DNA from: Rhizopus arrhizus
Taxonomy: Eukaryota; Mucoromycota; Mucoromycetes; Mucorales; Rhizopodaceae
DNA length: 64,000 nt
Assembly: GCA_024220505.1 (NCBI GenBank)
Contig: JAKZZE010000034.1
Coordinates: forward strand, 62,001 to 126,000
Direction of reading: 5' to 3'
The notes beneath the pieces are model-generated. The model was given only the letters and a program-made list of their open reading frames with translations, was not told where the DNA came from and did no database searches. The position numbers and the translations under genes are program-made. Positions 1 through 36,469 of this stretch are shown here, piece after piece. Position 1 is the stretch's first letter. Each line of letters opens with the position of its first letter.

Positions 1-586
1 AGCAAGTTTAGTTTTTCTTTCAATGGATTCATTGAGAAGTGTAGGATCACGAATGATGGAGGGGCTCAGAGGGTCAAAGTCGCCACGAATAGTGATTTTG
101 TGTTTGTATAGCTGAGAACGGAGCTCAGGTTCGAAACCGGTATGGATAAGGAAGCTGACCACATTTCGATCTGAATATTGAATATCCAGAATGCGGCGTG
201 TGTTAATGTGCAACTCACGAAGGTTAGCACGGAGTTGATGGATGGGGAGGCGACGGTGAATGGGAACGTGAATAAACGTGAAGCTGGAAGGAGCAGTAGG
301 AGAGGAAAATTGTCGAGCAATGGCAGCTAAACTGTGTTTGGGTTTGGGATTCGGAAGCTTAGATACCTTGGTTGTGGGAGGAGCAGCATCATTGCTGGGG
401 GGAGCGTGGACGTTTGGAGGAGGGGGGAGTAGATTCAGAAGGAGGACTGGAGTTTGCAGTTGGTGTGGGTTCAGAGGATACTTGCTTCCGCAAAGAAGCG
501 TTTTCCTGTTGCAACTGGTGTATCTTGGCATTAGTGATTGCGAGTTCATTTTGTAATCGTTGAATGGTTTGAAGGTGGGTGGACAT
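1..586 (-). pseudogene. LINE ORF1-like (gag-like) gene, broken copy running off the window
   Basis: The start codon is at 586 on the minus strand. The first ~60 residues form a leucine/glutamine-rich coiled coil (LQTIQRLQNELAITNAKIHQ), then a Ser/Pro/Thr-rich linker ending at a TGA near 389. After a shift of frame in the C-rich stretch around 400-415 the homology resumes and continues to base 1, with the block RRLPIHQLRANLRELHINTR. The same block occurs in the intact relative at 864-1643, which identifies the family. Such proteins (coiled coil, then a basic domain) are typical ORF1 products of fungal non-LTR retrotransposons and would bind the element RNA. This copy is frameshifted and its 3' part lies outside the window. 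It is not annotated as functional. Confidence 0.6.
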
Positions 587-661
587 GATGGGTTATTTCC
601 TTAAAAGGAAAAAATTATCAAAAGTGTTGGGGAAGCGAAAGAGATCATTAAATTGATATAC

Positions 662-1712: not shown

Positions 1713-1788
1713 TTAAATTGATATACACTATTTTCACAAATTATTCATACATCTTCAGAAAAAAATTCGTATCGTTCAAACATAAAAA

Positions 1789-2145
1789 TTGATTCAATGT
1801 GTGATTTGTACCACTGATGTCGATTCTTTTAAACATTTCCTATTTGACTGTCCTCCTAAAGCAGCTGTCTGGCAAACTATTATTCGAGAATTCTTGTGGC
1901 CAATGGTGGATATCAAAGACATATACTTCGCTTTCAAAACATTAGACTTCTACTCAGTTTCTTACTGCCAAAATACAGCAATCTCATCACAGCTGGTCTT
2001 AACTTTTACATTTGCTAGCATATGGAAATTCCATTGGATCAGCATCTTCCAACAGACTATCTTCCAAATTAATCAGGTACTACATAGTATTCGAGGTAAT
2101 ATTCAAGAACACATTGAGGAATCCTACCTTCTGAAGTCCTTCTAA
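1789..2145 (+). pseudogene. C-terminal remnant of a LINE reverse transcriptase (zf-RVT)
   Basis: The translated frame opens with a C-x2-C-x8-H-x4-C cluster (CVICTTDVDSFKHFLFDC) followed by a proline and an aromatic-rich tail containing ASIWKFHWISIF. This is the usual zinc-binding end of non-LTR ORF2 proteins, where the RT domain is followed by a CCHC-like knuckle and an IW-containing tail. No RT catalytic motif is present upstream, where the ORF1 element and its target sequence lie instead, so this is a 5'-truncated fragment. The following 150 bases are T-rich and may include the old 3' end. Confidence 0.6.
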
Positions 2146-2363
2146 CTATCAAAAGTATTTTATACCTATGTTTTACTCTATTCTTTTCTTTCTTTTTCTT
2201 TTTGTTTTGTCCAATACTTTAATTACTTAAACTTGCAACTGCCTCTTGACACATACATTTGGAGCAACACATAAAAACTTTTTTTAAAAAAAATCATTTA
2301 GATTATTTTTTAAAATTCATAAATTTATTACTGCATGAATTGCACGAGAAAAAAAAAAGAATA

Positions 2364-2855
2364 CTATATTGGCTTACGGTTCAAACAGTCTTCGAATCTA
2401 GCAGCTGAATATCTACAAAATCCTTTAATATCGCTCAAAAAGATTCTGCTGTATGTATCTTCACTTCTAGACGATCATGCCTTTTCCTGCGAAAGCTCTT
2501 TTCTTTTAAGCTTACTTTTACATACTGGCCAAAGCTGTTCAATCGGGTTGAGCTCAGGGGAGTAATCCGGAAGATAAACACAGTCGTAGCAGCGTTGCTC
2601 GATGCATTTTATAATATCAGTATTCTTGTGAATAGGAACATTATCCATAACAATGTAGCTGTTCTTCAATCATCCTTGCTTATACAAAATATCAACAGCA
2701 TTTGCAATGGAATTATAATATTCAGTAACTGTTCCCCTTTTGGAATTTTCAAAAGTCTGTGCACTTCTTGCTGTCTTTCTCTTCTTCAAAGGGACAGGTG
2801 CTCTTGGTCTCTTTACCTTGACTTTTACTATACCGTAAGGAGAAATAGCATACAA
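2364..2855 (-). pseudogene. Tc1/mariner (IS630-type) DDE transposase, C-terminal fragment, copy A
   Basis: Minus-strand translation gives a lysine/arginine-rich linker, then YIVMDNVPIHK with the second catalytic Asp and YLPDYSPELNPIEQLW with the third acidic residue, the signature of the DDE_3 superfamily. The helix-turn-helix and the first Asp region are absent. An in-frame TGA at 2670-2672 splits the frame just before the VMDN motif and another TGA follows at 2472-2474. Copy B has both stops too. The fragment is back-to-back with the Fanzor gene, ~430 bases apart. It cannot encode an active transposase. Confidence 0.75.
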
Positions 2856-3290
2856 ATAGTTGTTGTTTTGGTCCTTGTCTTAGGTACATATGCAAAAGCA
2901 CAGCTTTTTTATTTATTTTTTATCATGTTACAGAGTGTCTTATGTTCATTTAGCTTTATTCACTTATTGGTGCATTCATAATTATGTTTAATCATTAGTT
3001 TTGTTATAATATATTCCATAACAAAGAACAAGCAATGCTATTAATCAAAGTTATATTATTGCCGAAAAATACTATATAAAACCCCGTCTATTTCCTTCTT
3101 TCTCTTACTTTTATCAATCCTACATTCATACCTTGTTAATTTGTGACAGTGTTAATTATATACATATTCAAACAGGTAAATCATACTTGATATAAAATAA
3201 TAATTGATCTCTCACAACTTTTTTATTCCATTAGTAATACTAGCTTTTATCATGAATTAAGATTCTCAACCGAGTACTCCAGCTGGCACC

Positions 3291-5422
3291 ATGAGTACTA
3301 CTGGGACTCTTGTTTCTGATGATAGTATTTTATCTGTGAAATCATCTATCGATGGCATTGGCTGGAACGAGCAGTATCGAGAGCGATTGGAGAAGTTCGT
3401 AAACATCATCCATGCTACTACAACACATGCGTACTCCTTATCCAAATTCATATTTCTCTGCACACTTCAAGATGATGCCAGTTTTGATATCGCTTCTTAC
3501 ATTAACAAAGGGTTCTTTTCTAAAGTATGATTATCCTTAGTGAATTATTGTCAAGGCTGTGTGGGTGAGGCAACAGCTCGCAGACGTGCATTCATTGGTC
3601 AATACATTCAAAAATATCTCGATTTTACTTCATATATATGGCCCGGGCTTAAATATGCTCAACAACATCTTCAGTAGAAGGACTGAAAATGTACACTGCT
3701 TATATTAATAATATTGGAGCTCATTTTGGCAATCATTTTCGTCGTGCAATCAACACTTTATTGCAAATTCATCAAAGAAAAGCTGACTTGATTAGGCAAA
3801 GACAAGAAGAAGGTATAAACACTGAAGCAATCTCCAACGAGATATATGAACAAGCCACACTTCCAGCAAGGCAATTTAAAGAACTTTTATTTTCTAGAAT
3901 TGTTGATCCATCTTCTATCGAACTTCTTTTTCAAGACCCGATTTACAACCAAGCTTTGCAAAGACTAACACCCATCTTGACTTCGTATCCAGTCCGATAC
4001 ACATTTGAACAGAACAATATTTACTACGATGCCAAAGCTAACCCACATGGGCTCATGATGGCCTTTTATCATCTTGTTCGCTTATTTGAAACTCTCACAT
4101 TACCTATTTTCAATTGTTTTCCTCTTTGCAGAACCTGGATACATGGCTATGCAACAATTGATAGTAAAATTCTCTGTCAAAATATTCTTGAACGTCAGTG
4201 GAATAATGGAATCAATAAAATGAATCTCTGGGTCGAGATACTTGGTATGAATTCTGCAGCTTTGAAACCTCAAGAACTTCATGTGCTTCGATTTCGTGAA
4301 ACAATCCAAATAGATAGTGTGGGTGTCGCAGTCCTTAAAAAAAGACAAGTTAGAAAGCATCAATGTATTGGTCTTCAAAATATGTTCGTAGAACCTGAGC
4401 CTTACATAACAGACCTCAATGCTCAACAACATGGAGAAATTACTGGGCGCTGTGTCACCATTGACTCTGGAAGACGAGACCTTTTGTACTGTGTACATGG
4501 AAATTCTACTATTAATGTACCACGCACATATAGATATACCAAGTCTTGCCAAAATAAAATGGAAAAAACAAAGAAGTATCATCGTATCTATGAAGCCGTT
4601 AAACCACAAGAAGTACAAAATGCTGAAGGTACTCTTGTAAATTCTCGATCTTTGGATCTACAAACTTTTGAAGAATATCTTAGAAACCGTGCAATGACCA
4701 CTGAATTTTTGTAAAGGCATTATACTGAAACTACAACTAATCATTTGACTACTCATCCCTTGCATCGAAAATTGAAACTGTCCAAGTACATTAGAAGGCA
4801 GAAAGCTAGCGAGGATATGGTCGCTAAATTGAAAAGCAAGTTTGGAAACGATGCTATTTTTGTTGTGGGTAACCATTCTGCTCCAAATACCCGATATCAA
4901 TAACCTGCGAGAGGCGTCGGATTCAGAAGGCTGCTGAAAAACCATGGATTCTTGGTGTATTTGATTGATGAGTTTCAAACAAGTCAGTGCTACCCTCCTT
5001 GTGAGAATCGTAGTCCGATAGCCTTCAAGAGAATACCGAATCCATGGCCGTATCAAAGACAAAACAATCCTGAAGCCATTTGTCATGGTTTACTTAGGTA
5101 ATCAAATACTCTGATCAATGATTATCAAAATTGTTCGCTGACTTGTTCTTTTTTTTTTTTGTCTCTTAGATGTACAAATCAAAATTGCAAAGTGACTGTG
5201 CAAAACATTTCAGGTGCTGAAGAACTCTGTGAGCTTTTATGGAATCGAGATTTGGCAGCATGCCTAAATCTGATTCATATTGTTCGTAACCTTCGCTTGA
5301 ATGGTGAAATATCAGAGAAGTTTCAACGTGCTGGAGATGAAAGAAGTGGCCCGACTAGAAGAAGAAGAAGAAGAAGATCTGAAGAGAATGCAGAACGACA
5401 AGTTTTACCTAGAACCTTGTAA
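3291..5422 (+). pseudogene. Fanzor1-type RNA-guided endonuclease (TnpB-like), copy A, inactivated
   Basis: The start is ATG 3291 (an earlier ATG at 3252 ends after two codons). The RuvC-like core is readable in order: Asp of TIDSGRRDLLYC (codon 4463), the RYTKSCQNK block typical of Fanzors, Glu of YLIDEFQTS (codon 4970), a C-x3-C plus C-x4-C zinc ribbon, and Asp of WNRDLAACLN (codon 5249). A 72-nt GT-AG intron at 5098-5169 joins LLR to CTNQNC and restores the ribbon. The C-terminus is arginine-rich. The frame is interrupted by TGA 3528-3530, TAA 4712-4714 and TAA 4901-4903, all shared with copy B, and by a private one-base deletion near 3666. Fanzors are eukaryotic relatives of IS605 TnpB that use a guide RNA encoded at the 3' end of the element. 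This copy should be non-functional unless read through. Confidence 0.85.
5098..5169 (+). other. Intron in Fanzor copy A
   Basis: GTAATC donor, a long T-run and a TCTCTTAG acceptor. Removing it fuses the two halves of the zinc ribbon in frame (CHGLLR to CTNQNC). Its correct splicing phase shows the gene was a real eukaryotic gene before it decayed. The equivalent intron in copy B is 27849-27920. Confidence 0.8.
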
Positions 5423-5477
5423 TTTCCAACAGTTATCGCTGTGTTACCCTAGATGCAATTTGGTAAGCTTGAACTTC

Positions 5478-6637
5478 TTTAAAGCCTTCCATAAGACCCC
5501 AGTCACACCAGATCCGTTTTCTTCCAACCCGACATTATCTTTATTACCGCACCAAAGACAATTAGTGAGATTTTTGCTATATCTACCTCGAATTTGGAGG
5601 ATTTCCATTTTTCATGCCTATTAAAATAAAGGTCAGAACATATCAAACAAAGATGAATGGCATTTAATACATGTTTACTTTTTGGCTTTTTGCCTTGAAT
5701 CGTCTCATCCTTCTCATTCCCTTTCTTATATAATTTCTTTCTGTCTTTACTCTACTCTTTCTTTTTGCTTTTATCCCTCTTGGTTGAATTTCTGCTGCTT
5801 TTGTTTTTTTGTATTCTATCGTATTTATAGATACCATTTATTAGCATATTGACCATTATCTCTGGTGTCTACTGCCTTCTTTAATACAGGTAAAAGCTAT
5901 CTTTTGCATGAGAAAATTTGTAAATGCTGCAAAGAATGCAGAAATGCATCAAGAAATGTTATCAATCACACATTGCTCATACACTCATATTCTCCAAGTT
6001 GTGGCATTTTCTGCATATTACAAAACTTCCAAAAAGCTTTTATAACAAAGTGGTTTTTATTGTGCATCAATTAATGACTCATAACTTGTTTCCTAGTAAT
6101 GATTGAACAAATTTGGAACAACCGAAAAACAAAGTTAAAGTTTCATTACTGAATGTAAGGTCCAGCAAAAAGTTTTCCAGTCTCAATATATCGATTCGTT
6201 CTTGTTAAATTGCCATCAACAGATAACGGACTTCTTGTACAAGATGCTGATATTTACTTTGTAAACTTCATTTGCTGTTCCTTCACATATTATTACAATG
6301 ATATTCAAGCATTCCAGATCCTATAGTAACACGAAAGGTTTCCATCCACTGATTCGCGTGTTTAGTGCCTTAGACTCCTGCCCCCGTTCACCTGCCGAAA
6401 GCGATCCAACAATATTACATAGACTAGTCTACTCATTCCCCCCAAAGATATATGATCAGACACAAAAGAAAAATTCAAATTTAACAAGCCCTTTGAAGCA
6501 CAAAAAGCACAACATTTCTTTAAACAAGGCTTTTCTTCCAATGGTATACAATTCAAAAACAGGCGATATTATGGCTCACCAAATACTCTGCAAAAAATCA
6601 AGAATGCTGTTCTTGACGGAAATCTTATCTTCAATCT

Positions 6638-8511: not shown

Positions 8512-8970
8512 AGGTATTCTCTAGCTAATATATGTTTCAACATCGTCATCTGAAACAACAAAAGTTTATAAATCCGAGTTATTTGACCAATAGAATTACG
8601 GATTAAAGCATAATAGAGGCTTACGTTAACCTAGTTTAACCAAAAATAGTTTACTAGTAAAAAAATGCTTTTCACGTTTTTAATTTATTTACTATTTAAA
8701 TAACAAAAAGAGATGTAAGAAACTACAATAAACCAAATAATATATATATACATATATATATTTTTCAGGCAAGTATAAATGTATGTCATTAACCAAATCT
8801 AATAATACGCTTTTTTAAAACTGATCAATTTTGTGCTCAGATCCCATTTTAATTTTACTGCACATTAAAAAAAAATATCCAAAAAAGGTTAAAATTTGAT
8901 TATAATAATACTTTTTGTCGGTTAAACATCTTTCACGTTCTTCCGAAAACTTGTTTACTTCTTTGATCTA

Positions 8971-8979
8971 TATAAAAAG
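8971..8979 (+). promoter_or_regulatory. TATA-like box of P450 copy A
   Basis: TATAAAAAG lies about 70 bases upstream of the ATG at 9040, followed by a T-run and a pyrimidine-rich stretch with CCCCTCAAC. The same box is present upstream of copy B near 32659 although the surrounding promoter has diverged. Confidence 0.45.
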
Positions 8980-9039
8980 CCATTTTTTTTACAACAATTC
9001 CAGTCTTTTCCCCTCAACTTTTAAAAAAGAACTTGCAAT

Positions 9040-12000
9040 ATGTCAACAGATAATACAACGTCACTGATTGTTGTACTTCGTAACACGTCAGATGTAGAAA
9101 AAGATGGGCGCATCATTCGCTTTGGTAATGGTGCCAACCTTGATACCATTCGTTCCCTTGCTGCAGAAAAATTAGCTATTACGGGTGGCTATGCCAACAT
9201 TCAGCTTTTTAATCCAAATGGTGAATTATTGGGTGGAATTGACGATTTAAGACAGCAGCAGGTAGTCTATATTGATACAAAAGAACTTATTCGTGAAACT
9301 GTTCCTGGTCCAACCAAACTTCCATTCGTGGGTAGTTTATATGAAATGCTTCCAAACCTGTAAGCTTCTATCTAATAAAAAAAAATATAATGTATTAACA
9401 TTCATGACATAGCGATGAAGGTTGGATGCGTCAATTTGATCGTTTTGGTCCTTTGGTTGAGATCTCTCTTTTGGGAAAAATAATCGTTGGCACAAACGAT
9501 CCTAATATTGCCGAAATATTTGCTAAAGAATCAGAATACTTTACAAAAAAGATTACAAAGTCAGGTTTAGGTGAAGTCAAAGAGTTTGCTGGACAAGGCT
9601 TGTTTACTACTGATACAGATGAAATGGATTGGCAGCTTGCTCATAAACTGTTGATGCCTGCATTTAGTCCTCGTGCTATTAAGGTGAGATTAGGATACTA
9701 AAGACAGACTTTGGTAGCTAACAATGAAAATATTAGGCTTATCAAGGTGAGATGGGTATCATCGCTCAACAAACAATGAGGATCTTTGAACAATACCGTC
9801 CTGATGAGCCTGTTGAAATCCTCGAGTGGACAACCAACTTGACATTTGAGACCATTGGCCGTATTGGTTTTGGATATGAATTCAACTTATTGGTTGATCG
9901 TGATCAAGAACAAAATGCTTTTATCGAAGCTATGGGATACTGTTTGAGTCAAGCTGTTCAACGAATGCAACAAGCTGCATTTGTTAAGCAATTACCTATC
10001 GAAGCCAATCGTCGTTTTGATCGTTCAGTACGTTTGATGCATGAAGTAGTCGAGAATGTGATCCGTGAACGTAAGGCCAGTCCTGATGCTAAAAACAAAG
10101 AAAAGGATCTTTTGGGTTTCATGTTGAATGCCTGTGATGAGCACAACCTTGGCTTGTCCGATGAAAACATTAGAGATCAAGTAGTTACTTTCTTAATTGC
10201 TGGTCACGATACTACAGCCAACACTCTTGCTTGGACATTGTATGAATTGTCTAGACATCCTGACATTCAAGCAAAGGTGCTTCAAGAAATTGCTGATAAT
10301 CACATCAGACACGATGAATTACCGAATACTGAACAAATCAACAACCTCAAATATATGCATCAGGTTTTGAAGGAAGTACTTCGTAAATACCCACCTGTTC
10401 GTGTTCTTTCAAAATATTGTAAAAATGATTGTATCCTTCCCGGTGGCTACAAGATAAAAGGAAATACTCCCTGTTCCATTCACGTCTACGCTATGCATCG
10501 TAACAAGGATGTCTACCCTGATCCAGAACGCTTTGATCCTGATCGTTGGACTCCTGAAGAAGAACAAAAACGTTCTCGCTTTGCTTGGTTACCTTTCAGC
10601 ACTGGCCCTCGTGGATGTATTGGTATGGCATTTGCTTTACAAGAAGCCAAGACTGTATTGGCTATGTTCTTGAACCGCTTCGATTTCAAGTACAATGGCC
10701 CAGATGTTCAATGGGACTTTAAGACGGCCACTACTAAACCTGTTGATTTATTCATGACAATTCATCCACGTGAAAATTTCCCTAAACCCAACGGCGATTC
10801 TGTTCCTCCTCAAAAGTCCGATGCTAGTTCAAACCAAGCTGAAAGCAAAACAGCTACTGCAATGCCCGTCATCTCTGCTCAAAAGAATACTGATGTCGAA
10901 TTGCCTCCTATAACCTTCTTGTATGGTACTCAAACTGGTACGGCTCAGGATTATGCTACTGTTTTAGCCAGTCAAGCCAAAGGCTTTGGTTTTAAAAACA
11001 CAACCTTGTGCGAAATGGACAAGTGGAAGGTTCTTGCTGATGGCAAATTTATTTCTGACAACAAGGACAAGAAAAAGCTGGATAAGGAATTGGTTGTTAT
11101 CTGTACTGCTACCTATAACGGCCAACCTCCTGATTCTGCAGAGAAATTTGACGCCTTCTTGGATAGCAAAATGAGAGAAGACGATCACGAAAACATCTTG
11201 ACGGGTCTTTCTTATGCAGTCTTTGGTCTCGGTAACAAGAACTGGAGAACTTATCAACACTTTCCTATCAAGGTCAGCCAATGTCTCAGTGAACTCGGTG
11301 CCGAGCGCTTGTTTGCTAGTGGTGAAGGCGACAATGATAAGGATATGGATGCTGCCTTCAATGATTGGTGTGCTCGTTTCTGGTCTCACCTTTTGGAGAT
11401 TCATGGTATCACTGCTTGTGAATCTAGACCTGTAGTCCCCTCTGCTGCAACCAAGGAGAGCTCTGTTGATGTCAAATTTATTCAACCTAGTGATAAAGAA
11501 GCATGGAACAGTGCTATAAATAATCATTATGGCAATCCAAACGCTATTATCGTCGCCAACAGTGAATTGCAAAAGGATCAATCTCCTCGTAGCACGCGCC
11601 ATATTGAAGTTGATATCTCCAAGTTGTCTGGTGTCGGTGAACAAGGCCAATTGTATAGTGCAGGTGACCATTTAGAAGTCATGCCTGAGAACAGTAAAGC
11701 ATCTGTGGAATCAATTGCTTTGAGCTTTGGCTGGATTCTCGATTCAGTTTTTGAAATCAACCAAGAAACACTTTCTGATGTCTCTCCTCGTTCACTTGCA
11801 GCCAATATTAAGGGTCCATGCACCATTCGAAACATGCTCACTTACTATGCCGACGTGACCTCTCCACCCTCTCGCGCTGTCCTTGGCTGCTTTGCTGCTC
11901 AATTGAAGTTGGTTGCTCCCGAAACTGCAAGCGAGTTTGAAAAACTGATTATGCCCGATGCTAACAATCAAGATCAATATCCTGACTTTATCAAGCAATA

Positions 12001-12781
12001 CCGTACTCTTTTGGACTTGATTCATGCCTATCCACAAGTCAACCGCCTTGACCTCCGTCAGTTCCTTGCTGCTGTTCCTGTCATTCAACCTCGCCGTTAC
12101 TCTATTGCATCTTCACCCTTGAGCTACCCTAAGCATGCTCACTTGGCTGTGGGTGTTGTAGATGATGTGGTCAACAATCGCCACTACCCTGGTCTCTCCT
12201 CTTCTTTCTTAAAGGGTGCTCACGAATTGCCTATTCGCGCTATCCTCAAATCTTCCAAGAGCACTTTCAGTTTACCTCAAGATTTAGCTACTCCTTTGAT
12301 CATGATCTCTGCTGGTACCGGTTTCGCTCCCTTCCGTGGTTTCCTTCAAGAGCGCAAGGCTCAAATTGATAACTTGGGCGCAGACAAGGTGGCTTCCAGT
12401 GTTCTTTTCTTTGGCTGTCGTCGTGCAGACCAAGATTATATCTATCAAGAAGAACTTGAAACTTATGCAAAGAATGGCGTCTTGTCTGATCTACACGTTG
12501 CCTTCTCAAGAAGTGATGAAAAATCCTCCATCAGATACGTTCAACACCAAATCCTTGCGAATGCAGCCAAAATTTGGAACTTGCTTTACCCTGCTGCTGA
12601 TGATAATAGCAAACCAGCTGCTGTCTATATCTGTGGTAGTGGTGCTATGAGTCGAGATGTTCGTCGTACATTCTATAGTATGGCAATTTCATTTGGCGCT
12701 GCCACAAATGATAAAGAAGCAGAAGCTTTGATAATCAAGTTAATGGATGAAAAGAGATATAACGAAGACGTTTGGGGTTAA
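9040..12781 (+). CDS. Self-sufficient cytochrome P450-NADPH reductase fusion (CYP505-like), copy A
   Basis: The product is a fused monooxygenase in which a heme P450 receives electrons from its own diflavin reductase. Exons 9040-9359, 9413-9683 and 9737-12781 join in phase to give 1211 residues. The order is: a ~75-residue N-terminal beta-grasp-like extension; the PGP hinge; I-helix AGHDTTANT at ~352; K-helix EVLRKYPP; heme loop FSTGPRGCIG with the ligand Cys at ~491; a linker; FMN site YGTQTGTAQDY at ~593; FAD motif RRYSIASSP at ~983; NADPH motif GTGFAPFRGF at ~1057; and a C-terminal Trp-Gly. CYP505 enzymes commonly hydroxylate fatty acids near the omega end, but substrate cannot be read from sequence. 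No N-terminal membrane anchor is visible, so it is probably soluble. It differs from copy B at seven residues, all in the first 570. Confidence 0.93.
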
Positions 12782-12897
12782 ACTTTCATTTTGTATTTAT
12801 TATTTTATAGATTTTTTGTAAAAATAAATTCGGGTTGCATTCATATTTATTCAGTAAAATAGAACGTAGTTTAATTTAATTGTCTTTTTATAAGATG

Positions 12898-13965
12898 CTA
12901 CAAGTTGTATTCCTCATCAGAGTCAATTTCATTCAAATTGTCTACTACAACCTCATCCTCACTATCACTCAATAAGGCTGTTAATTTTTCAGAAAACAAT
13001 GGCTTTTCTACCAGGACATAAGGTGTGATATTGAATGAGAACGCTAAATCATGTAAGTTGATAGATGATGAATCGTCTATTTGCATTGCATTGTCGTCTT
13101 GACTTATTGCTTTTTTGATGCCAATACATCGATTCGTTCTTCGTTTTGTGATTGCACTTGTAATTGATGATTTTATGTAACTCTAATCTAGATTTCAGAA
13201 AATGTGTATAATGGAGAGCAAAAGGAATCTTACCTCTGCTGCAAACAGCATAATATTAACCACATCCTCTCCTATTCCTCCTAAAAGACCGTTTTCAAGT
13301 GCAATTCCTGTCATTCTGGTATGTAATACTTCTGGTGTTGGTAATTCCTTCATATCAATGCACAATGGTGCCACTAGACTCTTTGAATATTCTTGGCTGT
13401 AATCTATATTATCTCAATTTAATTCTTTTGAAGTCATCTTATTATACTAGTATATATACTTTGAGGTAATTGATTGAATTGAATTGGTAGTGATATTGGT
13501 CGGCTAACTCTTGGACTCATCAATCGATTCACATATGGCTTCAGCCTATTTCTATCTCCAGACTTTCTTTTATTAATATCCTTCATTACATCTTGGTATT
13601 TCCGCAGGTACTTACTTTCACAAGTGCTTTTAATCTTTCTCTTTCTGCTTTACTCAGTGCCATGACATCCATCTTTAGTCTCTTCTTCTTTGGGTCCGTA
13701 TCTTGACTTCCTTCACCTATTAAATTTCCATCTTTTCCTCTTTTGCGTTTAGCCCAACCCACCAGGCCATGCTTAGAAGGCGGCAGTGTATTTGTTTGTG
13801 CGTTACGTACAGTACTTAAAATAAAAGCATTATGAAGATGAGCTTACAAAAAAAAAAGTGATTTCAGTATTATTTGTTGGTTTTTGAATAGTTGTGCGCA
13901 CCATTTTGTCTGCTCAAGTAAATATTAGCGTAAAAATCAAATTCTTGTCGATTTAGCTTTCCCAT
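12898..13965 (-). pseudogene. SAGA subunit HFI1/TADA1, 5'-truncated duplicate
   Basis: The sequence matches the 3' exons of the complete gene at 36586-37875, including HNAFILSTVRNAQTN, MTGIALENGLLGG and an acidic C-terminus ending DSDEEYNL. The duplication breakpoint at 13965 removes the first ~75 codons together with the start and promoter. The remaining exons keep open frames and splice sites, which fits a recent event. A truncated protein from a cryptic promoter is conceivable but unsupported. Confidence 0.85.
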
Positions 13966-15239: not shown

Positions 15240-15335
15240 TGTTGCATATCTTGAAGGCGCTATACACTATTTTCACGAATTATCCTTCAGAAAAAAAATC
15301 GTATAGTTTAAAGATATTGGTGCATGAATTGCACG

Positions 15336-15380
<45 letters not shown>

Positions 15381-15940
15381 AAAAAACAAAAAACAAAAAA
15401 CAAAAAACAAAAAACAAAAAACAAAAAACAAAAATAAAAACAAAAAAAAAGAAAGCTTGCTGGAGGCAAAGAGCAAAGAGCAGGCGACATTATTATTGAA
15501 GGGCCTACTATAGAGCACGTTGATATGAAGAAGAGTACTGCCGTCGAGAACAACAAGCCAGTAGCAAAAGGTACAACTACTGCCCACTTTGTAAGATTTA
15601 TAAACGAGCTTCTTGATATCATGGACATGGACGAAAGTCTTATGGGTAGTTATCTTGTAATGGATTACTGTACTATTAATAAATCTCATCCAATCATAAG
15701 AAAAATTGAGAGTAGAGGTTATAGAGTAATATACCTACCCTCTTGTTCGCCAGAGCTCAACCCAATTGAGCAGTTTTAGGCTATAGTTACAGGAAAGCTC
15801 AAATATCGTCGAATTAAAACTTATCGAGTCCAAGTGCTGATGCTTGCAATCAAGTTCTTCATGGCTTCTCTAGTCAAATCATCCACTGTTGTAATAAAAC
15901 ACCTATGTGAACATGCTTTTAAAATCATACTATGATATTT
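15240..15940 (+). pseudogene. Tc1/mariner DDE transposase remnant with poly-A and (CAAAAAA)n tract
   Basis: From ~15440 the plus strand reads KGTTTAHFVRFINELLDI, then GSYLVMDYCTINKSHP and YLPSCSPELNPIEQF before a TAG at 15777-15779, with homology continuing beyond (GKLKYRRI). These are the second and third catalytic regions of the IS630/Tc1 DDE_3 family. The usual Asn-x-x-x-His after the Asp is altered to Tyr-x-x-x-Asn, and the N-terminal half is missing. It is a different subfamily from the 2.4 kb fragment. Upstream lies a ~40-base A-run followed by repeated CAAAAAA units (15339-15450). Confidence 0.7.
15260..15337 (+). repeat. Short dispersed repeat shared with 1.72-1.78 and 2.33 kb
   Basis: TATACACTATTTTCAC, followed by CTTCAGAAAAAAA and TCGTAT, occurs here and at 1721-1772. 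TGCATGAATTGCACGA occurs here at ~15322 and at 2333-2348. The two pieces adjoin here but are separated by the LINE fragment at the other site, suggesting one repeat that was interrupted there. It probably belongs to the terminal part of the Tc1/mariner-type elements next to both copies. Confidence 0.45.
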
Positions 15941-16423
15941 TCATAACACCATTTTTTTAGAATGTAATCCTTGCGAGAATTGGTATGATTAGAACAGCTT
16001 TATTGGGCTCAGCAAAGGATCTTTAATGGAGATTTTGATCAGTGAATGTATCATCATTATGCAGTGACATTACAAAATGACGATTCAATATTTTATACTC
16101 ATCAAGTTTGTTCTTACATATTTATCATTGAGATTTGATGAAAAAACATAAAGAACTTGACACATTCAGACGCTAATAACTTCTCGAGTCCTACCTACTA
16201 TGTGTAACTACCATTCTATGTGAATCTAGAAAACAAGTATCTTCTATTGCAAGTTACTACATAGTGTAAATTCATTGTAGACACATTGTTATTATTCAGT
16301 TGTAGCTGTGTACGAATAAATATACATAAATGGGATGGGAGTATTTCCTTTTAACATTTAAATCAATTTCTGAAGACATTTTTTCTTTTTGTTCGTACAT
16401 TTCACTCGTGAAAACACATTAGA

Positions 16424-17203
16424 AAATGAAAGGAAAGCAAAAGGATACTTTATTCTCTTCAAACCAAAAGAAGCCATCTAAGAGCGAAAACGGTAGGCTC
16501 CATATCTAATAATGGATCGAAATGTCACTGACCACAAAATTGATACTGTTATAGACTCGTTTGAACTATATGTAGAGGACAATTCAGACGCCGACTTCTA
16601 ACCCGTTGTAACAGCTAGAAAAAGAAAAAGTAAGTTGCATTGTCAAACTTGATATAGGCAAACAGCAAGTCTAACGTATGAAACCCCATCATAGGTATGA
16701 AAAATACTCCACAGAGTGGATCACAAAAGAGGCTCAAAGGCAAAGGAAAAGTTACAGATTCTGAAGCTACTACTACAAATAGTACTGGTATCTCTACAAC
16801 AGATGAAACTATCATGTTCAATAAGATCACTCTGGATGACTATGATCTTGAATATAGCAGTGACGATTTTGATGCACCTGCTTTTCGTATGACCAAATTA
16901 ACTTCTGCTGCTGTGGAGTCAAGCACAACTGCTTCTAAAACAAGTCTAAGTTCCCTCAAGCCTAGTAAACCTATTCCAACTGCTTTCAATTCAGCTGCAA
17001 CTTCTGTCAAGTCAAGTTTTTGTCCTGTGCCTGTTGACAAGGCAAGTAACATTAAAGAAGGTCCTAAGAAGATAAGCAAGTGTGTGATGACAATTAAAAC
17101 GACTGTAAAGAATATTTGGAAACCAGCATATTTACAGGTATTGTATGTTTTGGTTCACACTACCAACTTATTAGTTACACATACCGTTGCCTTCACAAAG
17201 TAG
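16424..17203 (+). pseudogene. Ser/Thr-rich hypothetical protein with one in-frame stop
   Basis: A plausible three-exon model starts at ATG 16424, with introns near 16487-16552 and 16629-16693. The product would be rich in Lys, Ser and Thr with acidic patches (DDYDLEYSSDDFDAP). The second exon contains a TAA directly after NSDADF, so the full model is broken; the last exon alone (16697-17203) is open for 168 residues. I do not recognise the family. The lysine-rich start and low-complexity linker resemble N-terminal parts of fungal DNA-transposon proteins, but that is a guess. Confidence 0.3.
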
Positions 17204-19300
17204 GTTAGTGACATTTATTTTCTGGAAACGACATTTGTTTTTTGCTAAACGAAGTTTGTTTTCTTTAAATCGACAAAATTTACCAGCCCCACTGTATATG
17301 AATCCAAAAATGAGTTAGTTTAATAGGAATTCTTTTTATAAAAGCAAATAGTCTTAGTCATCCCACAACCCAAATCCATGACTGTATACTTAAAGGATCA
17401 AGCTCCCTAAATAGCATTTCAATAAGAGCTCTTTGCCTTTTTTTTTTTTTTTTTATAGAAAAGATGATGGTAATCTCATATTGAGCAAATCTTGTCTCTC
17501 TTTAAACGTAACTAAATCAAGAGAAATGCGTTTATCTGACTCTCCTTTTTTTTTTTTCTTATAATCTGCAGACTTTAGTTGTATACTCAACCAGAGTATT
17601 TAAATCCATTTACAACATGTATTTACATGCATATGATCCTTATTACAGTATCAGAAACTCAATATTTATTTCCCCTCTCCCTCTTTTTTTTTTTTATAAG
17701 GAATCTAGGTTTCAATTTTGTTTTTAATTGGTTACAGCTGACAAGGGAACGATAATCATTTGATAAAAACTACAGCCAAGTATCAAAGGAAAAGGAAAAG
17801 GAAAGAGAAAAGGAACATCAAACAAAGTCAGAAAATGGAAATACGAAAAGAGTCCATTCGACCCTTTCTTCACTCCTTGTCTTTAGAAACAACTACTTGT
17901 ACTCCTTTTTTTAAAAAAAGGGGAAAAAGAGAGATTAGATGAATAAATGCTCTATTCAACTCAGTCTCAAGTTTTCTTCAAGTTATCATAAATAATAAAG
18001 AAGCTTTCTTTTTAATAGAACCATTATTTAAAGGAGATAAAAGGACCGAGACTATGGTGCTTTTAACTACTTTTAGAAAAATCATAGAAAAGGATGATTC
18101 TCTATTACTCGATTCTTATGTCATTTTATGATGTCCAATCATATTGCAAGTATTCAAAGTCCACGGATACCACATAAAACTTGCTTTAAGAACATTAAAA
18201 AGTTTCTTGCCTTCTTTTATTCTGTTAAAATTATACTTATTGATTTATATTTTCTCTGTTTCCATTGTAACTTTATCAGTCAAAAACAGGGGATTTTTGT
18301 ATGCTAACCACATTAAGGAGGATTATCGAGTGCTGCCTTGCCACTAAAATGACCATGCGTTCATTGTGTGTGGCGCGTTCCCAAGTGATTGGGTTAATCG
18401 TGTCACGCGAAAAAAAAAGAAACTGATGCATTCAATAAGTATTTCCCCTGTATTCAACCTTGTGGAATGTATGTATTTGTTTCTTCATATGAAGCTTCTT
18501 GGAGAGAATGAAAAGGAAATAAGAAGTGTGTATTTTCCGCATTTTTCCAAAATTGGCATTTTAAAAAAGTAGAAAATAAGTTAATATCAAACCGTATTTT
18601 TGTCTCGACTTTTTTTTTTATTCATTTACATATGTAATTGCTAATATGCTACTCTTTTTTTTAAATAAAAAAGAAAAAGGAGAAGGCTCTAACAGTAAAA
18701 TACATTTCATCATTTGGGAACCATTTTTGTGATAAAGAACAAATGTTTTATTTAAGGATAGATTAATTAAGGTTTTCCTTTTTTTTTAAAAAAAAAAGTT
18801 CGATTTTTATATAAATGGTTAATCTCATGACTAATCTGGAAAATTACCTGACTTTTTTCTATCCTTTCTTCATTTTATAAGCCATTTTGAGAAATAAACG
18901 ATGAGCGTTTCATAATATGATTTATTTCTATTTTACTTTTCTTTATTACTTATGGCTTCTTTTTATTTTCTCATGGGTTGTTATAGAAATTTATCACATT
19001 GTGAAACGCCCACATAGTTCCAAGTAAAGTCTAGCGTATAATTTAATTGGAAAATTTTTTTTTACAATTTTTTCTTTTTGGGAATAGAGGGAGACTAAAA
19101 AAAAAGAACCACATCCCCTTTAAAAAATCGGTAATTCTTTATTTGTTCCCTGTTTTCTTTTTCGCTTTTCTTATTTTCGGTTTTCTTTCTTTTTCTTTTT
19201 TTCACCATCTTGGAAATACCACAAAAAGTTTTGCAGTACTTTTAGTAAAAAAAAAAAAAAAAAAAAAAAACCCTTATTTATCCTTTTTTATATAAACAGG
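17204..19300. other. Long AT-rich intergenic region upstream of the HSF gene
   Basis: No supported gene. It has many T-runs and A-runs of 8-22 bases, and a long A-tract (about 19247-19270) just before the HSF start. The final few hundred bases presumably hold the HSF promoter; no canonical nGAAn array was identified with confidence. Confidence 0.4.
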
Positions 19301-27202: not shown

Positions 27203-27595
27203 CTTGATAATAAATTATTTTGTTACATCATATACCTTGTAATTAGTTGCATTACACTTTATTCCGAAATTATTAGTATACTTTCGAGTAAAAAATTCGT
27301 GCAAATAAAATAAAATAAAAAAATGGCGCAAAAGAACAAATTTAGCGTAGAAGCAGGAAAAAATTTTGAGAATAAGAATAATAGCAATAATGAGTACATA
27401 TAACAAAAGAAGAAAAAAAAAAAACTAGTAGGTAGAAAATAGATAATATATCAATATGAAACTTACCAATAACAAGAAAAGTACATTAAATGATAAAATG
27501 TGCAACAACCGAAGGTTAATAAACAAAGTACCAAATTATTTAAGTTCAAGCTTACCAAATTGCATCTAGGGTAACACTGCGATAACTGTTGGAAA

Positions 27596-29728
27596 TTACA
27601 AGGTTCTAGGTAAAACTTGTCGTTCTGCATTCTCTTCAGATCGTCTTCTTCTTCTTCTTCTAGTCGGGCCACTTCTTTCATCTCCAGCACGTTGAAACTT
27701 CTCTGATATTTCACCATTCAAGCGAAGGTTACGAACAATATGAATCAGATTTAGGCATGCTGCCAAATCTCGATTCCATAAAAGCTCACAGAGTTCTTCA
27801 GCACCTGAAATGTTTTGCACAGTCACTTTGCAATTTTGATTTGTACATCTAAGAGACAAAAAAAAAAAAGAACAAGTCAGCGAACAATTTTGATAATCAT
27901 TGATCAGAGTATTTGATTACCTAAGTAAACCATGACAAATGGCTTCAGGATTGTTTTGTCTTTGATACGGCCATGGATTCGGTATTCTCTTGAAGGCTAT
28001 CGGACTACGATTCTCACAAGGAGGGTAGCACTGACTTGTTTGAAACTCATCAATCAAATACACCAAGAATCCATGGTTTTTCAGCAGCCTTCTGAATCCG
28101 ACGCCTCTCGCAGGTTATTGATATCGGGTATTTGGAGCAGAATGGTTACCCACAACAAAAATAGCATCGTTTCCAAACTTGCTTTTCAATTTAGCGACCA
28201 TATCCTCGCTAGCTTTCTGCCTTCTAATGTACTTGGACAGTTTCAATTTTCGATGCAAGGGATGAGTAGTCAAATGATTAGTTGTAGTTTCAGTATAATG
28301 CCTTTACAAAAATTCAGTGGTCATTGCACGGTTTCTAAGATATTCTTCAAAAGTTTGTAGATCCAAAGATCGAGAATTTACAAGAGTACCTTCAGCATTT
28401 TGTACTTCTTGTGGTTTAACGGCTTCATAGATACGATGATACTTCTTTGTTTTTTCCATTTTATTTTGGCAAGACTTGGTATATCTATATGTGCGTGGTA
28501 CATTAATAGTAGAATTTCCATGTACACAGTACAAAAGGTCTCGTCTTCCAGAGTCAATGGTGACACAGCGCCCAGTAATTTCTCCATGTTGTTGAGCATT
28601 GAGGTCTGTTATGTAAGGCTCAGGTTCTACGAACATATTTTGAAGACCAATACATTGATGCTTTCTAACTTGTCTTTTTTTAAGGACTGCGACACCCACA
28701 CTATCTATTTGGATTGTTTCACGAAATCGAAGCACATGAAGTTCTTGAGGTTTCAAAGCTGCAGAATTCATACCAAGTATCTCGACCCAGAGATTCATTT
28801 TATTGATTCCATTATTCCACTGACGTTCAAGAATATTTTGACAGAGAATTTTACTATCAATTGTTGCATAGCCATGTATCCAGGTTCTGCAAAGAGGAAA
28901 ACAATTGAAAATAGGTAATGTGAGAGTTTCAAATAAGCGAACAAGATGATAAAAGGCCATCATGAGCCCATGTGGGTTAGCTTTGGCATCGTAGTAAATA
29001 TTGTTCTGTTCAAATGTGTATCGGACTGGATACGAAGTCAAGATGGGTGTTAGTCTTTGCAAAGCTTGGTTGTAAATCGGGTCTTGAAAAAGAAGTTCGA
29101 TAGAAGATGGATCAACAATTCTAGAAAATAAAAGTTCTTTAAATTGTCTTGCTGGAAGTGCGGCTTGTTCATATATCTCGTTGGAGATTGCTTCAGTGTT
29201 TATACCTTCTTCTTGTCTTTTCCTAATCAAGTCAGCTTTTCTTTGATGAATTTGCAATAAAGTGTTGATTGCACGACGAAAATGATTGCCAAAATGAGCT
29301 CCAATATTATTGATATAAGCAGTGTACATTTTCAGTCCTTCCACTGAAGATGATTGTTGAGCATATTTAAGCCCGGGCCTTATATATGAAGTAAAATTGA
29401 GATATTTTTGAATATATTGACCAATGAATGCACGTCTGCGAGCTGTTGCCTCACCCACACAGCCTTGACAATAATTCACTAAGGATAATCATACTTTAGA
29501 AAAGAACCCTTTGTTAATGTAAGAAGCGATATCAAAACTGGCATCATCTTGAAGTGTGCAGAGAAATATGAATTTGGATAAGGAGTACGCATGTGTTGTA
29601 GTAGCATGGATGATGTTTACGAACTTCTCCAATCGCTCTCGATACTGCTCGTTCCAGCCAATGCCATCGATAGATGATTTCACAGATAAAATACTATCAT
29701 CAGAAACAAGAGTCCCAGTAGTACTCAT
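27596..29728 (-). pseudogene. Fanzor1-type RNA-guided endonuclease (TnpB-like), copy B, inactivated
   Basis: Same gene as copy A, starting at ATG 29728, with the 72-nt intron at 27849-27920. It lacks copy A's one-base deletion, so 391 consecutive codons (28304-29479) are open and cover the N-terminal helical region and the RuvC-I Asp motif. It keeps the three shared stops: TGA 29489-29491, TAA 28304-28306 and TAA 28115-28117. RuvC-II Glu, the zinc ribbon and RuvC-III Asp all remain readable. A few amino-acid changes separate it from copy A. It is the better template for recognising the family, but it is still interrupted. Confidence 0.85.
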
Positions 29729-30163
29729 GGTGCCAGCTGGAGTACTCGGTTGAGAATCTTAATTCATGATAAAAGCTAGTATTACTAATGGAATAAAAAA
29801 GTTGTGAGAGATCAATTATTATTTTATATCAAGCATGATTTACCTGTTTGAATATGTATATAATTAACACTGTCACAAATTAACAAGGTATGAATGTAGG
29901 ATTGATAAAAGTAAGAGAAAGAAGGAAATAGACGGGGTTTTATATAGTATTTTTCGGCAATAATATAACTTTGATTAATAGCATTGCTTGTTCTTTGTTA
30001 TGGAATATATTATAACAAAACTAATGATTAAACATAATTATGAATGCACCAATAAGTGAATAAAGCTAAATGAACATAAGACACTCTGTAACATGATAAA
30101 AAATAAATAAAAAAGCTGTGCTTTTGCATATGTACCTAAGACAAGGACCAAAACAACAACTAT

Positions 30164-30655
30164 TTGTATGCTATTTCTCCTTATGGTATAGTAAAAGTCA
30201 AAGTAAAGAGACCAAGAGCACCTGTCCCTTTGAAGAAGAGAAAGACAGCAAGAAGTGCACAGACTTTTGAAAATTCCAAAAGGGGAACAGTTACTGAATA
30301 TTATAATTCCATTGCAAATGCTGTTGATATTTTGTATAAGCAAGGATGATTGAAGAACAGCTACATTGTTATGGATAATGTTCCTATTCACAAGAATACT
30401 GATATTATAAAATGCATCGAGCAACGCTGCTACGACTGTGTTTATCTTCCGGATTACTCCCCTGAGCTCAACCTGATTGAACAGCTTTGGTCAGTATGTA
30501 AAAGTAAGCTTAAAAGAAAAGAGCTTTCGCAGGAAAAGGCATGATCGTCTAGAAGTGAAGATACATACAGCAGAATCTTTTTGAGCGATATTAAAGGATT
30601 TTGTAGATATTCAGCTGCTAGATTCGAAGACTGTTTGAACCATAAGCCAATATAG
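30164..30655 (+). pseudogene. Tc1/mariner DDE transposase, C-terminal fragment, copy B
   Basis: Counterpart of 2364-2855, with VMDNVPIHK and LPDYSPELNLIEQLW (Pro to Leu and Pro to Ser changes against copy A). The same TGA codons interrupt it. The first catalytic Asp and the DNA-binding domain are missing. Confidence 0.75.
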
Positions 30656-30679
30656 TATTCTTTTTTTTTGCATTTTTGC

Positions 30680-31720: not shown

Positions 31721-32415
31721 TTTAATATATGGGGACTGAATGCATGTAGACCAATGCTTCATTGTGTAGCCATAGGGACCAACCATGGAAACTAATTTTG
31801 ATAACAAAGGTCATTTAGCATCGATAAAATGCTCATTTTTTAATCGACAGTTTTATAACTTAAAAATCAATCTACTAGAAATTTTATAAAGGCGAATATG
31901 ATAGATCCAAGCCAATTTGAGAACTTTTGTACTTGCATTTAACAAAATTTTAAAGCTTGGATTTATCAAGTTAATCCAAAGTTTGATCAATAAAATACAG
32001 TAATTTTAACATACTTTCGCTATGAATGATGTATATTCACATCATTGCTTTCATACTAGCTTTTTTATCACAGAAATTATGATTTGTAAACAAGCTCTTT
32101 TTAGGTATTCTTTCTTTAGGTAATATATGTTTCTGTAAGCGAATTTTAATATAAAACGTTTTCGTTAACTATCCTAAATGTATTATGACTCCGAGAGTAT
32201 TGTATGAATTTCATCTTTGTCATTTGAAATTACAAAACTTTATAAGTCCGAATTATTTGACCAATAGAATTACGGATTGAAGCATAATAGAAGCTTGCGT
32301 TGATCTAGTTTAACTAAAAATAGTTTACTAGTAAAAAAAATGCTTTTCACGTTTTTAATTTATTTACTATTTAAATAACAAAAAGAGATGTAAGAAACTA
32401 CAATAAACCAAATAA

Positions 32416-32446
<31 letters not shown>

Positions 32447-32726
32447 TTTTCAGGCAAGTATAAATGTATGCCATTAATCAAATCTAATAATACACTTTTT
32501 TAAAACTGATCAATTTTGTGCTCAGATCTCATTTTAATTTTACTGCACGTTAAAAAAAAAATTCCAAAAAAGGTTAAAAGTTGATTATAATAATACTTTT
32601 TGTCGGTTGAACATTTTTCACGTTTTTCCGGAAAGTTGTTTATTTTTTTGATTTATATAAAAAGCCATTTTTTTTTTTACAACAATTCAGTCTTTTCCCC
32701 TCAACTTTTAAAAAAGAACTTGCAAT

Positions 32727-35700
32727 ATGTCAACAGATAATACAACGTCACTGATTGTTGTACTTCGTAACACGTCAGATGTAGAAAAAGATGGGCGCAT
32801 CATTCGCTTTGGTAATGGTGCCAACCTTGATACCATTCGTTCCCTTGCTGCAGAAAAATTAGCTATTACGGGTGGCTATGCCAACATTCAGCTTTTTAAT
32901 TCAAATGGTGAATTATTGGGTGGAATTGACGATTTAAGACAGCAGCAGGTAGTCTATATTGATACAAAAGAACTTATTCGTGAAACTGTTCCTGGTCCAA
33001 CCAAACTTCCATTCGTGGGTAGTTTGTATGAAATGCTTCCAAACCTGTAAGCTTCTATCTAATAAAAAAAAAATATAAGGTATTAACATTCATGACATAG
33101 CGCTGAAGGTTGGATGCGTCAATTTGATCGTTTTGGTCCTTTGGTTGAGATCTCTCTTTTGGGAAAAATAATCGTTGGCACAAACGATCCTAATATTGCC
33201 GAAATATTTGCTAAAGAATCAGAATACTTTACAAAAAAGATTACAAAGTCAGGTTTAGGTGAAGTCAAAGAGTTTGCTGGACAAGGCTTGTTTACTACTG
33301 ATACAGATGAAATGGATTGGCAGCTTGCTCATAAACTGTTGATGCCTGCATTTAGTCCTCGTGCTATTAAGGTGAGATTAGGATACTAAAGACAGACTTT
33401 GGTAGCTAACAATGAAAATATTAGGCTTATCAAGGTGAGATGGGTATCATCGCTCAACAAACAATGAGGATCTTTGAACAATACCGTCCTGATGAGCCTG
33501 TTGAAATCCTCGAGTGGACAACCAACTTGACATTTGAGACCATTGGCCGTATTGGTTTTGGATATGAATTCAACTTATTGGTTGATCGTGATCAAGAACA
33601 AAATGCTTTTATCGAAGCTATGGGATACTGTTTGAGACAAGCTGTTCAACGAATGCAACAAGCTGCATTTGTTAAGCAATTACCTATCGAAGCCAATCGT
33701 CGTTTTGATCGTTCAGTACGTTTGATGCATGAAGTAGTCGAGAATGTGATCCGTGAACGTAAGGCCAGTCCTGATGCTAAAAACAAAGAAAAGGATCTTT
33801 TGGGTTTCATGTTGAATGCCTGTGATGAGCACAACCTTGGCTTGTCCGATGAAAACATTAGAGATCAAGTAGTTACTTTCTTAATTGCTGGTCACGACAC
33901 TACAGCCAACACTCTTGCTTGGACATTGTATGAATTGTCTAGACATCCTGACATTCAAGCAAAGGTGCTTCAAGAAATTGCTGATAATCACATCAGACAC
34001 GATGAATTACCGAATACTGAACAAATCAACAACCTCAAATATATGCATCAGGTTTTGAAGGAAGTACTTCGTAAATACCCACCTGTTCGTGTTCTTTCAA
34101 AATATTGTAAAAATGATTGTATCCTTCCCGGTGGCTACAAGATAAAAGGAAATACTCCCTGTTCCATTCAAGTCTACGCTATGCATCACAACAAGGATGT
34201 CTACCCTGATCCAGAACGCTTTGATCCTGATCGTTGGACTCCTGAAGAAGAACAAAAACGTTCTCGCTTTGCTTGGTTACCTTTCAGCACTGGCCCTCGT
34301 GGATGTATTGGTATGGCATTTGCTTTACAAGAAGCCAAGACTGTATTGGCTATGTTCTTGAACCGCTTCGATTTCAAGTACGATGGCCCAGATGTTCAAT
34401 GGGACTTTAAGACGGCCACTACTAAACCTGTTGATTTATTCATGACAATTCATCCACGTGAAAATTTCCCTAAACCCAACGGCGATTCTGTTCCTCCTCA
34501 AAAGTCCGATGCTAGTTCAAACCAAGCTGAAAGCAAAACAACTACTGCAATGCCCGTCATCTCTGCTCAAAAGAATACTGATGTCGAATTGCCTCCTATA
34601 ACCTTCTTGTATGGTACTCAAACTGGTACGGCTCAGGATTATGCTACTGTTTTAGCCAGTCAAGCCAAAGGCTTTGGTTTTAAAAACACAACCTTGTGCG
34701 AAATGGACAAGTGGAAGGTTCTTGCTGATGGCAAATTTATTTCTGACAACAAGGACAAGAAAAAGCTGGATAAGGAATTGGTTGTTATCTGTACTGCTAC
34801 CTATAACGGCCAACCTCCTGATTCTGCAGAGAAATTTGACGCCTTCTTGGATAGCAAAATGAGAGAAGACGATCACGAAAACATCTTGACGGGTCTTTCT
34901 TATGCAGTCTTTGGTCTCGGTAACAAGAACTGGAGAACTTATCAACACTTCCCTATCAAGGTCAGCCAATGTCTCAGTGAACTCGGTGCCGAGCGCTTGT
35001 TTGCTAGTGGTGAAGGCGACAATGATAAGGATATGGATGCTGCCTTCAATGATTGGTGTGCTCGTTTCTGGTCTCACCTTTTGGAGATTCATGGTATCAC
35101 TGCTTGTGAATCTAGACCTGTAGTCCCCTCTGCTGCAACTAAGGAGAGCTCTGTTGATGTCAAATTTATTCAACCTAGTGATAAAGAAGCATGGAACAGT
35201 GCTATAAATAATCATTATGGCAATCCAAACGCTATTATCGTCGCCAATAGTGAATTGCAAAAGGATCAATCTCCTCGTAGCACGCGCCATATTGAAGTTG
35301 ATATCTCCAAGTTGTCTGGTGTCGGTGAACAAGGCCAATTGTATAGTGCAGGTGACCATTTAGAAGTCATGCCTGAGAACAGTAAAGCATCTGTGGAATC
35401 AATTGCTTTGAGCTTTGGCTGGATTCTCGATTCAGTTTTTGAAATCAACCAAGAAACACTTTCTGATGTCTCTCCTCGTTCACTTGCAGCCAATATTAAG
35501 GGTCCATGCACCATTCGAAACATGCTCACTTACTATGCCGACGTGACCTCTCCACCCTCTCGCGCTGTCCTTGGCTGCTTTGCTGCTCAATTGAAGTTGG
35601 TTGCTCCCGAAACTGCAAGCGAGTTTGAAAAACTGATTATGCCCGATGCTAACAATCAAGATCAATATCCTGACTTTATCAAGCAATACCGTACTCTTTT

Positions 35701-36469
35701 GGACTTGATTCATGCCTATCCACAAGTCAACCGCCTTGACCTCCGTCAGTTCCTTGCTGCTGTTCCTGTCATTCAACCTCGCCGTTACTCTATTGCATCT
35801 TCACCCTTGAGCTACCCTAAGCATGCTCACTTGGCTGTGGGTGTTGTAGATGATGTGGTCAACAATCGCCACTACCCTGGTCTCTCCTCTTCTTTCTTAA
35901 AGGGTGCTCACGAATTGCCTATTCGCGCTATCCTCAAATCTTCCAAGAGCACTTTCAGTTTACCTCAAGATTTAGCTACTCCTTTGATCATGATCTCTGC
36001 TGGTACCGGTTTCGCTCCCTTCCGTGGTTTCCTTCAAGAGCGCAAGGCTCAAATTGATAACTTGGGCGCAGACAAGGTGGCTTCCAGTGTTCTTTTCTTT
36101 GGCTGTCGTCGTGCAGACCAAGATTATATCTATCAAGAAGAACTTGAAACTTATGCAAAGAATGGCGTCTTGTCTGATCTACACGTTGCCTTCTCAAGAA
36201 GTGATGAAAAATCCTCCATCAGATACGTTCAACACCAAATCCTTGCGAATGCAGCCAAAATTTGGAACTTGCTTTACCCTGCTGCTGATGATAATAGCAA
36301 ACCAGCTGCTGTCTATATCTGTGGTAGTGGTGCTATGAGTCGAGATGTTCGTCGTACATTCTATAGTATGGCAATTTCATTTGGCGCTGCCACAAATGAT
36401 AAAGAAGCAGAAGCTTTGATAATCAAGTTAATGGATGAAAAGAGATATAACGAAGACGTTTGGGGTTAA
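32727..36469 (+). CDS. Self-sufficient cytochrome P450-NADPH reductase fusion (CYP505-like), copy B
   Basis: Exons 32727-33046, 33101-33371 and 33425-36469 give 1211 residues with the same domain order as copy A: beta-grasp-like extension, P450 with Cys-ligand loop PRGCIG, FMN, FAD and NADPH domains. Against copy A I count seven substitutions (Pro/Ser in the extension, Asp/Ala at the first splice junction, then Ser/Arg, His/Gln, Arg/His, Asn/Asp and Ala/Thr), all before residue ~571. The reductase half is identical in protein sequence. The ATG context and TATA-like box are kept while the upstream 500 bases have drifted, so expression of the copies could differ. Both copies look functional. 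Confidence 0.93.

Follow-up and report, generated by a model that had tools for sequence, protein, structure and literature searches.

Results

A broken Fanzor1 gene inside a Tc1/mariner-type element

The window, i.e., the whole 64-kb stretch of Rhizopus arrhizus DNA that was analysed, carries near its start a two-exon gene that is, by homology, a Fanzor1. It is housed in a transposable element (copy A), an inverted twin of which (copy B) lies further downstream (Table 1). The motifs from which an initial annotation had recognized a Fanzor gene were all recovered on the forward strand, namely TIDSGRRDLLYC and YLIDEFQTS, an intron with cysteines to either side of it and, further on, WNRDLAACLN.

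Table 1. Features of the Fanzor-bearing elements in the window. Fanzor1 assignments are by homology; 9cf0 and 8gkh are PDB entries.
Feature	Position	Strand	Remarks
Left end, copy A	1722..1797	+	TATA (last TA = target-site TA), then left terminal inverted repeat CACTATTTTCACAAATTATT...
LINE-like 3' fragment inside copy A, near left end	about 1798..2288	+	Boundaries by homology
Copy A body	2289..5478	+	Homology to copy B and other copies stops near 5478; right terminal repeat missing
Tc1/mariner-type DDE transposase remnant	2475..2879	-	Fanzor gene is on the other strand
Fanzor1 exon 1, N-terminal piece	3261..3530	+	ATG at 3291; stop-terminated; 9cf0 residues 504-580, E 1.4e-6
Fanzor1 exon 1, main piece	3653..4714	+	353 aa; RuvC-I TIDSGRRDLLYC; stop-terminated; 9cf0 E 4.9e-45, 8gkh E 9.9e-10
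Fanzor1 exon 1, remainder	4715..5097	+	Two pieces, stop 4901-4903 between; YLIDEFQTS and first zinc-ribbon half
Intron	5098..5169	+	GT..AG, 72 nt, within zinc ribbon; read from sequence
Fanzor1 exon 2	5170..5422	+	Second zinc-ribbon knuckle and RuvC-III WNRDLAACLN; L031 exon 2, 41% over 69 aa, E 6e-14
Scrap of another window-family left end	15261..15345	+	Two matches to L056; just before remnant 15436-17297
PpFz1-like element remnant, internally deleted	15436..17297	+	Transposase remnant, Fanzor exon start, right end
Element copy B	27253..30669	-	Inverted twin of 2350-5478; right end kept, left end missing

Three of the stop-to-stop pieces of 3261-5422 (3261-3530, 3653-4714 and 4904-5101) match the Fanzor1 of Parasitella (PDB 9cf0), the last of them at residues 1143-1206 with an E value of 9.7e-16, and because these matches are collinear the homology goes beyond chance, which bears out the identity first claimed. 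The second solved structure matched by the main piece is the Fanzor1 of Spizellomyces (8gkh), to which 4904-5101 is similar as well (E 0.0069). Piece 4715-4903 had no Pfam match and was placed by its frame and by similarity to other copies. The last piece, 5102-5422, has a weak direct PDB match (E 5.2), and homology of exon 2 to Fanzor1 comes through L031, a relative with an open exon 1. Profile searches of the Fanzor pieces, by which the initial annotation was to be checked, returned only a sub-threshold TNB match in Pfam (E 0.11) and a weak CutA match in NCBIfam; it was the solved Fanzor1 structures that matched. Weak Pfam matches to PF01630 and CutA1 in the Fanzor region were taken as noise.

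The predicted RuvC triad is kept, with D, E and D in order: TIDSGRRD and LIDEFQTS align with 9cf0, and WNRDLAA with exon 2 of L031. We take these residues to be the catalytic ones, following the literature. The zinc ribbon (TNB), described at the outset as readable, is not intact in the window copy: the true C-x2-C has lost its first cysteine (QCYPPC), which most aligned relatives retain (QCCPxC), and the C-x3-C proposed earlier is not the real knuckle. This loss is the damage of one copy, so membership of the lineage rests on homology instead. The intron does join the zinc ribbon, as had been supposed. Its splicing links HGLL-R to CTNQNC, L050, L039 and L043 have a GT at the corresponding position, and the exon break of L031 falls at the same residue; a splice-site pattern search missed both L031 and L033.

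The window gene is a relic. In-frame stops occur at 3528-3530, 4712-4714 and 4901-4903, all three shared by copy B, and in copy A the frame also shifts on passing from the first piece to the second, which leaves 3261-3530 in a different frame from the rest. Copy B is without this frame change, and a continuous reading frame is absent from both copies.

The surrounding element is of the Tc1/mariner type, with a DDE transposase remnant, terminal inverted repeats and a TA target site. A match to DDE_3 (PF13358) on 2475-2669 is above the curated cut-off (E 1.3e-16), while 2670-2879 has no Pfam match above cut-off and resembles the same region of L039 and L049. At the left end of copy A, CACTATTTTC at 1726 aligns with the left ends of other copies. 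At the right end of copy B, a TA at 27253-27254 adjoins the terminal repeat CACTTTATTCCGAAATTATT..., which is common to other copies and, read by eye, mirrors the left one. Neither window copy has both ends, and terminal inverted repeats with TA flanks were established across copies; TA alone is a weak target-site signature. Copy A is interrupted between 1797 and 2289, where L056 is continuous; we read the intervening fragment as LINE, with a sub-threshold zf-RVT match (E 0.0033) on the ORF 1786-2145.

Copies A and B are 99.5% identical over 3128 bp (16 substitutions, one 1-bp indel), and a P450 block adjoining them is likewise duplicated, at 8535-13965 and 32209-37653, with 98.7% identity. 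Two separate transpositions were accordingly rejected as the origin of the two copies in favour of one segmental duplication. The Fanzor blocks of the two duplicate halves lie in opposite orientation to each other, and the junction falls at A/T runs. It follows that the stops common to both copies are older than the duplication or travelled with it. The duplicated block holds a P450-reductase fusion gene that resembles CYP505/P450foxy, and a 1014-aa frame is open at 9737-12781.

The PpFz1-like remnant at 15436-17297 is 89-97% identical to L039/L040/L043, with the middle of the Fanzor missing at 17201. The start of the window (1-649) is a repeat 97% identical to L043:6445-7095, which there lies directly beside an element of the 838-aa family described below. 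An Rfam scan of positions 1-33000 and a tRNA scan of the whole window found nothing.

Three Fanzor1 lineages in one genome

Among protein matches, the best ones bearing a species name came from Rhizopus arrhizus and R. delemar (87 and 96% in one search, 97% over 84% of the query in another, in which a 93% hit without a species name ranked first), which points to a Rhizopus or a close relative. We searched the genome (50.26 Mb, 41 contigs) in six frames, so that the counts are lower bounds. At least 25 loci scattered through the genome belong to the window lineage, their identity to the main piece ranging over 54-100%; two of these are the copies in the window. Of the about 23 lying outside, about half were aligned, and all 11 of them are broken by in-frame stops when read in the frame of the window copy. 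The pooled pN/pS of this lineage was 0.48 (pS 0.24), with one locus counted twice (rows L003 and L049), a value that points to past purifying selection. The lineage was thus once functional and, among the loci examined, is dead.

In a tree of 47 proteins three Fanzor1 lineages were well separated: that of the window, a PpFz1-like one with an 838-aa reading frame, and one of 617 aa borne by Fanzor-only elements. Some of the deepest branches of this tree were poorly supported (80/52, 84/61, 90/77), and the window row filled 42% of the columns. The expectation that intact paralogues would be found elsewhere in the genome thus held in part: the genome does contain Fanzor1 genes whose exon 1 is complete and open, but they are not close relatives and belong to the other two lineages, being about 33-35% identical to the window piece.

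The 838-aa family (L039-L045) matches PpFz1, the Fanzor1 of Parasitella parasitica, with a bit score of 1074 and has its FRI insertion. Its element measures about 5.1 kb, has TACAGTG...CACTGTA ends and carries the transposase on the same strand as the Fanzor; a pattern search that allowed up to 3 mismatches found 150 end-like sites, and the reversed control pattern found 2. Five of the 7 fetched copies have a complete, uninterrupted exon 1, a count biased by the choice of these copies for long Fanzor frames, and the transposase is uninterrupted from the helix-turn-helix to NPIEQF in one of the seven. Open frames of about 443 aa in several copies (C12:1992871, C20:605291, C27:475977, C39:1246195 and others) are 36% identical to the transposase of this family, for which they possibly represent a helper in trans.

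The 617-aa family, which is without the FRI, resides in an element that spans about 2.87 kb and is bounded by terminal repeats of ~135 bp. Nine copies are 98-100% identical at one end, and the 617-codon exon is open in 7 of 10 fetched copies. The carriers of open Fanzor genes in this genome look recently mobile. Six Fanzor-only loci (L031, L033, L034, L035, L036, L038) have one LINE-like 3' tail in common on the left and differ in their right flanks, and L034 and L036 also share, further left, what we read from the ORFs as a DIRS-like element. A Mucor family with variable 5' regions is described in the available text of Bao and Jurka (PMC3627910), and the shared left tail of the 617-aa family may be akin to it.

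Selection on Fanzor and flanks of the insertions

In seven copies of the 838-aa family, selected because their Fanzor frames are long, the pooled pN/pS of the Fanzor was 0.41 (95% bootstrap 0.32-0.54), and that of the transposase in the same seven copies was 0.82 (0.59-1.22); the order was reversed in none of 2000 bootstraps. Judged by these substitutions, the Fanzor of this family is under purifying selection and its transposase hardly so. Among the seven open copies of the 617-aa family pooled pN/pS was 0.54, from few differences.

We then compared the base preceding the TA at either end of the elements. In the 838-aa family it was A at 23 of 26 unambiguous left ends and, read outward, at 17 of 32 right ends (p 0.005). 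The 26 left ends come from 42 listed rows and comprise six of the seven first copies (L041 is rearranged), 18 of 20 fetched copies (L076 and L083 are damaged) and two from pattern matches; the right ends are all 32 exact pattern matches, unfiltered. A looser left count gave 25 of 28 (p 0.004). When exact pattern matches alone were used, treating both ends alike, the ratio was 23/29 against 17/32 (p 0.058). Fifteen of these 29 left matches, 12 of them with A, lie outside the 42 rows and were excluded from the 26, and at least 3 of the 29, judging by position, seem to be the other end of an element that has a left-type repeat at either end. In the window family A preceded TA at 12 of 12 left ends and 3 of 6 right ends (p 0.025). 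Here 12 of 21 left ends were readable, 3 being damaged and 6 without an end; these had been located by way of the transposase, and some of the copies may lack a Fanzor, which would weaken a reading of the bias in terms of a TAM.

The background frequency of A before TA in the window is 0.35. As the right flanks are also A-rich (17/32), simple AT-rich targeting explains some of the left bias, and an impression from seven copies that right flanks are free of A/T bias was overturned by the pattern counts. Given the p value of 0.058 in the count by exact patterns alone, the left A-TA excess is suggestive; it is as expected if the TAM of the Fanzor decides which insertions persist. We regard the left flank bias as probably the trace of a TAM on top of AT-rich targeting.

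The Fanzor might instead be a mere passenger that confers no benefit, the elements being moved by a Tc1-type transposase in trans. This would agree with the spread of the Fanzor-only family without a transposase of its own, as no such frame was found when looked for in the 617-aa element. It is unlikely, since the flank bias is one-sided and the copies that show purifying selection on the Fanzor show hardly any on the transposase. Assignment of the window gene to Fanzor2 or to a TnpB of prokaryotic type is far less probable. TnpB has the same RuvC and zinc-ribbon motifs, and the sub-threshold profile match was to TNB; yet the only solved structures matched better than E 0.5 are the Fanzor1 proteins of Parasitella and Spizellomyces, an intron is present, and the gene groups with Mucoromycota proteins in a tree that held no named TnpB or Fanzor2 reference. 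That it is a domesticated, immobile host gene is barely credible, for although past purifying selection would fit, the lineage is dispersed over its many loci, these have element ends in common, and each of the other loci checked is broken by stops.

Folding of the right ends was examined for traces of a guide RNA. In five copies the last 75-150 nt showed no more stable folding than shuffled sequence did (z -0.9 to +1.4). Over the last 200 nt, the 838-aa and 617-aa families had fold energies below those of shuffles (z -3.1 to -1.1), and the window family had the opposite sign (z +1.9). The passages available from PMC10711439 predict the repeat and the target-site bases to be part of the Fanzor1 RNA.

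Discussion

It is highly probable that both window copies are dead remains of a Tc1/mariner-type transposon that had a DDE transposase and a divergent Fanzor1, and we include in this reading a putative RNA-guided role of the Fanzor1 in retention of the element. What was found at the loci consists of Fanzor1 homology, terminal inverted repeats, TA ends, a transposase remnant, stops and the marks of past purifying selection.

The closest known counterpart among solved proteins is PpFz1 (PDB 9cf0-9cf3), with which the RuvC-I, RuvC-II and first zinc-ribbon regions of the window gene align collinearly. Its near relative in this genome is the 838-aa lineage, which includes the ~100-aa insertion and its P-Q-P stretch; this insertion is the one named FRI in the available text of PMC11423790. 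By comparison with PpFz1, the window lineage, like the 617-aa lineage, has no room for the FRI, and the window copy is broken. As to the host elements, the available parts of Bao and Jurka 2013 (PMC3627910) describe mariner-associated Fanzor1 elements like those found here, with or without a mariner transposase and with terminal inverted repeats and TA sites. For Mucor, Rhizopus and Phycomyces the main text, as far as available, gives MuDR-type and unclassified elements, and the supplements may hold the present families.

With regard to the target motif, the accessible passages give the TAM of PpFz1 as ATN (PMC11423790) and that of SpuFz1, from Spizellomyces punctatus, as CATA (Saito 2023, PMC10432273). 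In S. punctatus the CA of this TAM is conserved just upstream of the left repeat, so that there, as here, a short motif lies outside that repeat; in comparison, the motif here is looser, TA being preceded mostly by (T/C)A. A further likeness is seen in the "ghost" copies described in the same passages, which consist of repeats without a Fanzor. The available portions of PMC3627910, PMC11423790, PMC10432273 and PMC10711439 give no TAM for Rhizopus Fanzors.

By analogy, the retention role would proceed as follows. The Fanzor1 would have bound an RNA read from the right end of the element, with the DNA just beyond that end serving as guide. Upon excision by the transposase, the Fanzor1 would cut the empty site, and repair from the sister copy would restore the element. 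The cut would need a short TAM beside the guide, here probably (T/C)A-TA, formed by the left flank and the TA target site. The window copies would no longer be capable of such re-cutting, and the two other Fanzor1 lineages of the genome keep open genes.

Retention by re-cutting of the empty site is an idea that comes from work on bacterial TnpB. To our knowledge, the role of Fanzors for eukaryotic transposons is still deduced from bacteria.

More tentatively, the three Fanzor1 lineages may have been captured separately by three Tc1/mariner-like carriers, each with repeats of its own, and survival of an insertion may be decided by the Fanzor, through a left-flank TAM, and not by the transposase. 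If this were true, only insertions whose left flank provides a TAM would be re-cut and restored after excision, and the flank bias together with the contrast in selection would be a genomic trace of retention. The finding is ordinary as to its kind, and its value lies in its detail. With three Fanzor1 lineages that differ in age, many copies and readable ends, such a genome would make retention testable from sequence alone, and the open 617- and 838-codon exons, along with a predicted target motif, are available for assay.
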